From: Lindgomyces ingoldianus
Taxonomy: Eukaryota; Ascomycota; Dothideomycetes; Pleosporales; Lindgomycetaceae
DNA: 64,000 bases
Direction: 5' to 3'
Assembly: GCF_010093535.1 (NCBI RefSeq)
Contig: NW_022985170.1
Span: forward strand, 1,341,013 to 1,405,012
Both the position numbers and the translations under genes were made by a program. Shown piece after piece: positions 3,086-64,000 of the stretch (its first letter is position 1; each line of letters opens with the position of its first letter). The notes below the pieces were generated by a model. That model worked only from the letters and a program-made list of their open reading frames with translations. It was not told where the DNA came from and did no database searches.

Positions 3086-3092
3086 TATATAA
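3086..3092 (+). promoter_or_regulatory. TATA-like element upstream of the tRNA gene
   Basis: TATATAA lies about 40 bp upstream of the first tRNA base. Upstream TATA boxes help TFIIIB placement in several ascomycetes (known for fission yeast). Its role here is inferred from position. Confidence 0.4.
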
Positions 3093-3131: not shown

Positions 3132-3288
3132 GGTGGTATGGTCTAGTGGTATGACGTCGCGTTGTGGCCGCGCCAGCCTGGGGTGAGTTAATCTCCATTC
3201 CAACCTGGCCCACTCAAACGAGTGGATTAAGAGCTACAAAACAAGAGTACTGACTGACAATTGTCCAGTTCGATTCCCAGTACCGCCA
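3132..3288 (+). tRNA. tRNA-His (GTG) with an 86-nt insert in the T arm
   Basis: Removing 3183-3268 leaves a 71-nt tRNA. The acceptor stem GGTGGTA (3132-3138) pairs with TACCGCC (3281-3287) through 7 pairs, one of them T-G, and the discriminator is A (3288). T8 and A14 are present, the D stem GTC/GAC frames a loop with G18 and G19, and there is a G15-C48 Levitt pair. The anticodon stem CGCG/CGCG frames the loop TTGTGGC with anticodon GTG at 3164-3166. The T stem is CTGGG (3178-3182) with CCCAG (3276-3280) around the loop TTCGATT (3269-3275). Without excision the T stem cannot form, because TCCAG before the loop does not pair with CCCAG. The A box is TGGTCTAGTGG (3139-3149) and the B box is AGTTCGATTCC (3267-3277). 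The one weak pair is 27-43 (T-C). No canonical 37/38 intron is needed. tRNA identity rests on the anticodon and the fold. Confidence 0.82.
3183..3268 (+). other. Spliceosomal-type intron-like insert within tRNA-His
   Basis: The insert starts GTGAGT and ends CAG. It has overlapping branch-like motifs ACTGAC/CTGAC with the putative branch A at 3257, 11 nt before the final G, which is ideal fungal geometry. It sits between tRNA positions 53 and 54, splitting the B box. Internally, TTAATC (3188-3193) can pair with GATTAA (3225-3230), and CCACTC (3210-3215) with GAGTGG (3220-3225); these share one base. The terminal TCCAG could also pair with the upstream exon CTGGG in the precursor. Fungal tRNA introns normally lie at 37/38 and are cut by the tRNA endonuclease; this one does neither by appearance. 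Confidence 0.72.
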
Positions 3289-3293
3289 AATTC

Positions 3294-3300
3294 TTTTTTT
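3294..3300 (+). terminator. Pol III T-run terminator
   Basis: Seven consecutive T residues start 6 nt after the discriminator base, the normal RNA polymerase III stop signal. It supports the idea that the split tRNA locus is transcribed by Pol III. Confidence 0.75.
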
Positions 3301-61039: not shown

Positions 61040-64000
61040 ATGTCTAAGAAACGGGCTGCCAGCGACGATGAAGTGCTCGCCTATTCCGAATCGAAGAAAT
61101 CAAAGATCGGGATTTCAAAGAGTGTCCTAATAGAAGGTTCTCAGCAGAATCTACAAAATGAGGCATATACCGTAGGCTGGATTTGCGCTATTACTACCGA
61201 ATATGTCGCAGCTCAAGCTTTCCTCGACGAAAAGCACGACGGACCGGAACATGTGCACGTTCATGACGAGAACGATTACACTCTTGGTCGAGTTGGGAAA
61301 CACAATGTCGTTATCGCCGTTCTACCTAACGGTGAATACGGTATTTCCTCTGCAGCAGGTGTCGCAAGCGATATGCTCCACACCTTTCCCAATATTAGAA
61401 TCGGGCTGATGGTTGGCATTGGTGGGGGCGCACCAACTCCCAAGCATGATATCCGTCTGGGTGATATCGTGGTCAGCGCTCCTTGTAATGGGAAGGGTGG
61501 TGTAATTCAATACGACTTCGGCAAAAATATCCAGGATCAGAGCTTCCAACTAACGAGGTTCTTGAACCAGCCACCAAAGGTCCTACGGGCGGCCATGAGT
61601 GGGCTCAAGGCAAAATACGAGCTAGACGGTCATCAGATTGACGAGGCTATTAACAGAATTCTGGAAGAGAAACCAAGACTGAAGAAATATAAACGGCCTA
61701 GTCCAGAAAGCGATAGACTATACCAGTCAACCGTCAAACATCCTCCAGACAATGAGAAAAACTGCACCGTGGTCTGTGGAGACCACCAGTCGGACTTAAG
61801 GCCGCGAGACGAACGAGCCGAAGGTGAAGATAATCCAGCAATCCACTACGGTCTGATTGCCTCGGCGAACCAATTAATGGAGAACGCTTTGCTTCGGGAC
61901 AAACTAGCAGAGGATAAGGGGGTCCTATGTTTTGAGACAGAAGCGGCAGGATTAGTGAACCAGTTCCCTTGTCTAGTTATTCGAGGCATTTGCGACTATT
62001 CCGACACTCATAAGAATGAGAGGTGGCAAGGATATGCAGCAATGGCAGCAGCTGCATATGCAAAGGATATTCTTTGCCGAATTGCTCCAAACAAGGTCGA
62101 GGCTGAGAAGAAGATCTCTGACCTTCTTTTATCTGGTTAGTTCACTTCGCTAAGTGTAGTGATCATTAGTTAACATTCAACAAGTGAAGAACGATATGAG
62201 TAAATTGCGATGCGATGTTCAAGACGCAAGGTCTGCTGTACAAGGCATATCATTCGAGCAGAAGCGAGGGAATATTGAAAGCTGGCTATCACCATCAGAT
62301 CCATCCACAAATTACAACAAGGCATTACAACAACGCCAGGAAGGCACAGGTTGCTGGTTCCTAAGCACTCCTGCGTACTTCCAATGGAAGACACAGCGGA
62401 ATTCCTCCTTGTGGCTTTACGGCATACCCGGATGTGGCAAGACAATCCTTAGTTCCACAATTATTGAAGACTTGGATAAGAAGCCCCCCGGATCAACTTT
62501 CCTCTACTTCTATTTCGACTTTAGCGATATCCACAAGCAGACACTTGAAAACATGGTCCGATCCCTAATTGGCCAGCTGTACTCCAAGTGTGAGAATACG
62601 CGGAAGCAATTGGATTCGCTCTTTTCCTCCTGTGAACGTGGGCGTCGTCAACCCAAATGCGAGTCACTTTGCCAGGTTCTCTCCCAAATGCTAGATCCCT
62701 TAGAAGACGTATATGTTGTTTTAGATGCCCTTGACGAGTGTTGTACGCGGATGGGGTCACACACTGAAGGATTGCTCTCATGGATAAGAGACCTGCTAGG
62801 CTCAAGGCAAAGAAATGTCCACCTTCTTGTGACAAGTCGGCCGGAGCAGGACATTCAATCAAAGTTGAACGACTTGGTTCACGAGGAGAATAGAATTCAC
62901 CTCCAGAGCAATCTTATCAGTGATGACATCTATGCCTACATTCACACTAGGGTAAGGGAGGGTGATGGTTTAAGGAGATGGCGAGAACGTCCTGAAGTTC
63001 AGGACGAGATTGAAGCCGCACTTGTCCAAAAGGCCAACGGCATGTGAGTAGGGTTTCAGTTTGCTATAGTCTTATTACCTAGAATAGTACACTAAGGTCA
63101 AATAGGTTTCGATGGGTTACATGCCAGATTGATGCGCTCGAAAACTGCTTGGAGTATCGCTCTCTCAAAAGGGCACTTGTCTCCCTCCCAAAAACATTAG
63201 ATGAAACTTACAGCAGAATTCTACAAGCTATTCCTTCCGAGCACAAGCAATACGCCACGATCATTCTTCAGCTTATTACATTCTCAGAGCGACCATTAAC
63301 GATCGAGGAGGCTGTTGATGCAATAGCAGTGGACACAAAGGGGAAACCATACTTTGATCCGAAGTACAGGATGCCTAATCCTCAAGAAATTTCGCGTTAT
63401 TGCTCAAGCTTAGTGGCTGTTGTTTCTATCACGGAGCATTCGAACAGGGGTAATCATGTGGAGCTTCAGTTGGCTCATTTCTCAGTGAAAGAATATCTGA
63501 TGTCGACTCGACTGGACAGCGATATCGCGCATGATTTTCAAGAGTCTACTGCTGGAGCAGCAATTGCAAAAACTTGTCTAGCGTATCTCCTGCACTTCAA
63601 CCAGAAAATTCCACGAAATGAGATTGTGAAGTGCTTTCCATTCGCACAATATTCAGCAAGATTCTGGATGAGAAATGCAGTAAGGGCTAAGGATTCAGAC
63701 AATACAGTGCTAGATTTCATTGAGCAGTTTTTCTGTGACCAGAAATGCTCATATGAAATCTGCTACAGCCTTTATAGACCAGATTTGCAATTCAACGGAC
63801 CGTATGAGGGCCAAGGGAACCCAGCACCGGCCTTGTATTATGCTGCATTTGGGGGCTTACTGCAGACGGTGAATTGCCTCTTAAACCGAGGTACCAACGT
63901 CAACACGCAGGGTGGAAGATACGGCAACGCACTCCAGGCAGCTTCATTTCGAGGCCACGAGCAGATTGTGAAGCTGCTGCTCGACAAGGACGCCGACGTC
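61040..64000 (+). CDS. PNP-NACHT-ankyrin NOD-like receptor (3' end beyond the window)
   Basis: Three exons so far, 61040-62135, 62185-63043 and 63106 to the window edge; introns of 49 and 62 nt (GTTAGT...AAG, GTGAGT...TAG). Residues about 44-355 form a nucleoside-phosphorylase-like domain ([51 protein letters not shown]). A NACHT ATPase follows: Walker [16 protein letters not shown] near residue 443, Walker [13 protein letters not shown] near 540, and [13 protein letters not shown] as sensor region. From about residue 890 ankyrin-type repeats begin ([36 protein letters not shown]) and run off the edge. Such proteins are fungal NLRs linked to non-self recognition and regulated cell death; the PNP domain acts as N-terminal effector or sensor. 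Ligand unknown. Confidence 0.93.

Follow-up and report, generated by a model that had tools for sequence, protein, structure and literature searches.

The locus described here raises the question of whether a nuclear tRNA gene can contain an intron of the type that the spliceosome removes from messenger RNAs. The introns of nuclear tRNA genes are taught to be handled by the tRNA endonuclease and a ligase alone. The gene in question encodes a tRNA-His(GTG) and is located at 3132-3288 on the plus strand of the window, i.e., the whole stretch of 64,000 nucleotides that was analyzed (C9:1341013-1405012 in the 68.4-Mb, 99-contig assembly of Lindgomyces ingoldianus; Pleosporales, Dothideomycetes). 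An 86-nt insert with GT...AG ends separates tRNA positions 53 and 54. All of the results come from this single assembly. As discussed below, we consider it highly probable that the insert is a spliceosomal intron in a working Pol III tRNA-His gene and that the tRNA genes of this fungus contain at least four more of the kind.

Exon 1 (3132-3182) contains the 5' strand of the acceptor stem, the D arm, the anticodon arm, the variable loop and the 5' strand of the T stem, which is CTGGG at 3178-3182 in the sequence and in the cloverleaf parse. The anticodon GTG, found by both ARAGORN and the cloverleaf parse, is at 3164-3166, and TGGTCTAGTGG at 3139-3149 is what we take to be the A box, going by the consensus. 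The insert (3183-3268), GTGAGT...ACTGACTGAC...CCAG, begins with a predicted 5' splice site (GTGAGT, 3183-3188) and ends with a predicted 3' splice site (CAG, 3266-3268). Two overlapping ACTGAC branch motifs (3249-3254 and 3253-3258) are 14 and 10 nt from its end, and a hairpin (CCACTC-AAAC-GAGTGG, 3210-3225) is predicted within it, the fold of the whole insert having a z-score of only -1.49. Exon 2 (3269-3288) supplies the T loop TTCGATT, the T stem CCCAG, the acceptor strand TACCGCC (to 3287) and A73 at 3288. All of these features are on the plus strand, as are a TATA box (TATATAA, 3086-3092) 46 bases 5' of the tRNA, a B box AGTTCGATTCC (3267-3277) and a T7 run (3294-3300) that is a predicted Pol III terminator.

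A sequence-only reading of this DNA had described a tRNA-His gene split in its T arm by a spliceosomal-looking insert and had listed a Levitt pair, the upstream TATATAA, the T7 run and a B box made partly by the last two bases of the insert. Each of these is borne out: TATATAA and T7 are read directly in the sequence, the B box opens with the two bases of the insert's terminal AG, and the Levitt pair, G15-C48, is seen by a manual count. A canonical 37/38 intron model for this gene scores no better than the placement at 53/54. The same reading had expected a full cloverleaf on removal of the insert. The acceptor stem (7/7, with one G.T) and the T stem (5/5) are as expected, but the D stem (3/4) has a T.T pair at 13-22 and the anticodon stem (4/5) a T.C mismatch at 27-43. 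In a comparison with and without the insert, of the kind that it had also proposed, ARAGORN finds no tRNA gene in the window DNA with the insert in place and a 71-nt tRNA-His(gtg) when 3183-3268 is deleted.

Tools that read the unspliced DNA find no tRNA above cut-off in the window. A compact reading that retains the insert scores 26.5 bits against the Rfam tRNA model, under the 29-bit cut-off; when the Rfam search is run over the whole genome and spans the insert, 3132-3288 scores 33.3 bits. Folding of the spliced letters at minimum energy is predicted to form the acceptor and T arms, but neither the D arm nor the anticodon arm; an incomplete predicted cloverleaf is common for unmodified tRNA letters. 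A search for a second exon that fits exon 1 (TTCRANN, T stem 5/5 and acceptor 7/7) has one match in 510,362 strand-bases, which is the gene itself, and the exon patterns have no match in prokaryote and viral contigs, as expected for a fungal gene. Elsewhere in the window, at 61040-63047, a phosphorylase-superfamily ORF is followed by a NACHT/NPHP3_N ORF, which is how fungal NLR-type genes are built.

At least 36 tRNA genes were gathered from the 68-Mb genome by searches that are blind to the ends of any insert. The Rfam tRNA model provided 34 of them (it scored 63 of 3779 candidates; a limit of E = 10 gives 37 rows), and its first look passed over at least two, tRNA-Lys(CTT) (L087) and tRNA-Phe(GAA) (L094), the latter with a 42-nt intron at 37/38. 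These two were added by a D-arm pattern that matched nine places (four in a reversed control), namely three known genes, the two new ones and four places judged by eye not to be tRNAs. The first look of the Rfam search skips genes with long or additional introns. Eleven fungal tRNA sequences used as queries gave a single match, an already known Val gene. All 36 genes fit cloverleaf pairing once inserts are removed; 20 have an intron of 6-42 nt at 37/38, and five have an insert outside 37/38. Genes for Tyr, Cys, Ile, Pro, Glu and elongator Met tRNAs are absent from the list, and these may carry further such inserts.

Some members of the collection display patterns of their own. For example, two tRNA-Thr(AGT) genes (L018 and L019) have identical exons and 37/38 introns of 6 and 7 nt that are one base apart. 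One of the tRNA-Lys(CTT) genes (L039, C95:14176-14247) is a diverged copy on a small contig of 26.8 kb. In addition, a minus-strand locus (L095, C50:270239-270267) has tRNA-like D and anticodon arms followed by no recognizable T arm; it can be read as a fragment, a chance match or another gene with a distant insert.

Three of the five inserts outside 37/38 are at 53/54. They are the one in the window gene, a 48-nt insert in a second tRNA-His(GTG) gene (His2; L038, C12:177581-177699) and a 49-nt insert in tRNA-Thr(TGT) (L040, C34:427985-428118), which also has a 13-nt intron at 37/38. The fourth, of 48 nt, is in the variable arm of a tRNA-Ser(GCT) gene (L029, C33:390075-390203); without it, the variable arm is TTCCTTCGGGAGC, the same as in tRNA-Ser(AGA) (L025). 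The fifth, of 51 nt, is in the T loop of tRNA-Lys(CTT) L087 (C1:157401 region), after TTCGA (58/59), and this gene has a 38-nt intron at 37/38 as well. Both inserts of that gene, at 37/38 and in the T loop, contain the segment CCTTAGAACGA (L087, 1491-1720), which may reflect chance, a duplication or a role in pairing.

The five inserts are all different and are on five contigs (C9, C12, C34, C33 and C1). Each lies precisely at a tRNA junction, and in all five genes the acceptor stem (7/7) and the T stem (5/5) pair across the insert. A search of the genome with four of them (all except the Lys insert) found no copies elsewhere; each of the four is single-copy, and therefore, they give no sign of a mobile introner. 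A pattern for more 53/54 inserts (CTRACN{3,16}AGTTCRANNCC) gave 17 rows (16 places) compared with 24 in the reversed control; 12 of 12 pairs form only in the window tRNA-His and tRNA-Thr(TGT) rows, and His2 was missed because of its T stem. The window tRNA-His and His2 are 66% identical and are mutually closest among 20 aligned tRNAs, although their inserts differ. Since both are split at 53/54, the split may predate their divergence.

The ends of the inserts resemble those of messenger RNA introns. All five have GT...AG at the exact exon junctions, their 5' splice sites (GTGAGT, GTAGGT, GTAAGT, GTAAGA and GTGAGT) are of the GTRNGW type, and each has a CTRAY branch motif (ACTGAC, GCTAAC, ACTAAC, ACTAAT or TCTAAT) 8-11 nt from its end. 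However, the 3' trinucleotides are CAG, AAG, GAG, TAG and TAG, so that two of the five are not the usual YAG, and we count AAG and GAG as a mark against the spliceosomal reading; the sample of host introns described below demanded YAG and, hence, gives no rate for either. By contrast, the 20 introns at 37/38 have 38 product-identical registers in total, and GT...AG is seen in none of these.

GTRNGW and CTRAY are general fungal splice signals. In a random background of 255 kb of the genome, both strands, GT...AG occurs at a rate of about 0.004 per register, and the combination of GT...AG, GTRNGW and CTRAY 7-15 nt from the end occurs in five of 499,354 random 86-nt stretches (1e-5). The joint chance of GT...AG in all five inserts, with two to three registers allowed for each, is about 10^-10; once the GTRNGW and CTRAY conditions of that combination are added, it becomes about 10^-22, a figure for which the motifs were picked after the inserts had been seen.

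A frame-bridging scan over the window and 63 loci provided a sample of the introns in the host's own messenger RNAs. It gave 21 mRNA-type candidates compared with four in the reversed control, and one of the 21 is an artefact over the window tRNA-His. The remaining 20 are 42-108 nt long, with the branch motif a median of 10 nt from the end, and the tRNA inserts (48-86 nt; motif to end 8-11 nt) fall within these ranges. The annotated DNA polymerase alpha gene has two introns, both at the expected places. In each of the five inserts, the longest run of Ts has two or three bases. This is not significant as a sign of selection, since 16 of the 21 mRNA-type candidates are also free of T4.

The surroundings of the genes bear on whether they are alive. 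TATAWA is present at -70 to -20 in 26 of the 36 tRNA genes and in 2.0% of random windows, and a run of at least five Ts follows within 50 nt in all 36, compared with 4.0% of random windows; the five split genes have both. In the genes with a 53/54 insert, the B box, which starts with the closing AG, has the sequence AGTTCRATTC. As AGTTCRA is found in nine of the 31 genes without an insert outside 37/38, this form of the B box is normal in the genome. The window gene, after removal of its insert, has a cloverleaf, a GTG anticodon and a Pol III promoter and terminator, together with the 27-43 mismatch.

An intact tRNA-His gene was looked for in the genome with the Rfam tRNA model and three pattern searches, and none was found. 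The pattern TTGTGGCN{10,16}GTTCRANNCC (TTGTGGC plus the T arm) matched one place, which is not a tRNA (control two). TTGTGGN{11,17}GTTCRANNC matched 23 places (control 17), none with a T stem of 5/5 and with anticodon stems of at most 3/5. The D-arm pattern AGTGGTN{1,5}ANNNNNNGTTGTGG matched five places (control three), the sole tRNA among them being the window gene. Of the 16 known genes that have no intron at 37/38, patterns of the TTGTGG plus T-arm type would recover 12 (12 of the 13 in class I), and patterns of the D-arm type would recover only nine of all 36 genes. An intact tRNA-His gene elsewhere in the genome is unlikely, though one could hide in a gap of the assembly or behind a long intron at 37/38.

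The sequence-only reading had left the choice between an mRNA-type intron and a dead copy and had pointed to the other tRNA-His(GTG) genes as a check. One more was found, His2, and it is split at the same position. If the inserts had simply broken dead tRNA copies, the cell would use intact genes elsewhere, and for Ser(GCT) and Lys(CTT) this could be so, because uninterrupted sisters exist (L021 for Ser; L016 and L039 for Lys). The anticodon-stem mismatch of the window gene and the incompleteness of the tRNA gene list also leave some room for this explanation. However, neither of the tRNA-His genes found is intact, the split genes have retained their TATA box, B box and terminator, their stems still pair across the inserts, and GT...AG ends with branch motifs are not expected of random insertions. 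Thus, we consider it very unlikely that the split genes are dead, and the intron reading is much better supported, given the split genes for His2, Thr(TGT), Ser(GCT) and Lys(CTT) with their TATA boxes and terminators. A related doubt, that the inserts are artefacts of assembly or annotation, draws on the use of one assembly only; with five different inserts on five contigs at exact tRNA junctions, and four of these single-copy where tested, such an error is very improbable.

Cutting by the tRNA splicing endonuclease at ectopic sites, as in Cyanidioschyzon merolae and the Guillardia theta nucleomorph, is another alternative, which we think as improbable as the dead copies. According to an excerpt of PMC3978253, algae do have tRNA introns at sites other than 37/38, and in the G. 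theta nucleomorph many of these are without a defined bulge-helix-bulge. Some registers of the Lindgomyces inserts do have partial bulge-helix-bulge pairing (a central helix of 3/4 in Thr; an outer helix of 4/5 in His2 and Lys), but the central helix has 0-3 of 4 pairs in all product-identical registers of the five inserts, and a full bulge-helix-bulge is not formed in any of them. This count is a weak test, because the introns at 37/38 reach a central helix of 4/4 in only one of 20 (mean 2.20); their outer helix of 4.95 of 5 is so by construction. It also speaks against the endonuclease that none of the five inserts is at 37/38, the eukaryotic nuclear position, and that GT...AG with a branch motif is in all five and in none of the 20 true 37/38 introns. 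Self-splicing by degenerate group I or group II introns is another way in which such inserts might be removed. Group I introns require a 5' exon that ends in T, and in the GT...AG register the five exons end in G, G, G, C and A. An Rfam search of the five loci finds no family except tRNA up to E = 1, which speaks against both groups. Fungal rRNA genes are known to contain very small introns (56-81 nt) that are putatively of group I (an excerpt of PMC3160393), but self-splicing has almost no probability here.

From the anatomy, recurrence and context of the five inserts, we infer that the spliceosome would remove them. Presumably Pol III reads through the insert of the window gene, which no T run of four or more interrupts. 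The spliceosome would then join position 53 to 54, and only after this could the T arm form, with end processing, addition of G-1 and charging to follow. In the three genes with a 53/54 insert, the AG of the insert would take the place of the two bases that open the B box, so that the internal promoter stays readable, and this may explain why 53/54 recurs.

Several known systems resemble this one in part. Introns of the mRNA type are found in the U6 genes of some basidiomycete yeasts, and the U6 snRNA gene of Schizosaccharomyces pombe contains a GT...AG intron that the spliceosome removes from a short Pol III transcript (an excerpt of PMC10484740). The tRNA inserts are likewise GT...AG introns in short Pol III transcripts, although here splicing is deduced from the DNA sequence. 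However, U6 belongs to the spliceosome and its intron is thought to be due to reverse splicing near the catalytic site, whereas tRNAs are not known to be part of the spliceosome; the Lindgomyces hosts also differ in having internal A and B boxes and in that several isotypes are affected. A second parallel is the nuclear rDNA of lichen-forming ascomycetes, for whose spliceosomal introns Bhattacharya (2000) is a reference. As described in an excerpt of PMC8527467, yeast spliced one of these introns from a Pol I rRNA. They too have GT...AG ends and lie ectopically in a gene of Pezizomycotina for an RNA other than mRNA, and the spliceosome of the host removes them, but they are in a large rRNA made by Pol I, whereas the inserts are in a 71-nt tRNA made by Pol III.

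The canonical introns at 37/38 are in nuclear tRNA genes as well, and Thr(TGT) and Lys(CTT) carry one of each kind, but the two kinds differ in position, length (6-42 versus 48-86 nt), ends and branch motif. Algae and archaea have ectopic and permuted tRNA genes, which are also interrupted outside 37/38. An excerpt of PMC3978253 describes these disrupted genes as bulge-helix-bulge mediated, with archaeal introns also in the T loop at 59/60. There, the endonuclease cuts at bulge-helix-bulge junctions, whereas the Lindgomyces inserts carry motifs for splice sites and a branch point. Among the titles and abstract beginnings of the open-licence PubMed Central literature, no paper was recognized as describing nuclear tRNA genes with spliceosomal introns, and an excerpt of PMC6652019 contains nothing on nuclear tRNA introns.

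With no intact tRNA-His gene found, maturation of the essential tRNA-His would have to go by way of the spliceosome, and so, the fungus likely needs the spliceosome to make a working tRNA-His. The wider picture is also probable, i.e., that the spliceosome would be obligatory for every tRNA-His, that introns would have entered tRNA genes repeatedly with 53/54 favored, and that Thr(TGT) and Lys(CTT) would need two splicing systems that are unrelated to each other. If this is true, the decoding of histidine codons in L. ingoldianus would be tied to mRNA splicing, and a capless, non-coding Pol III transcript could be a regular substrate of the spliceosome outside of U6. It would also account for tRNA genes that escape annotation programs, and the genes with two introns would be natural test cases of two machines acting on one tRNA of 71-76 nt.
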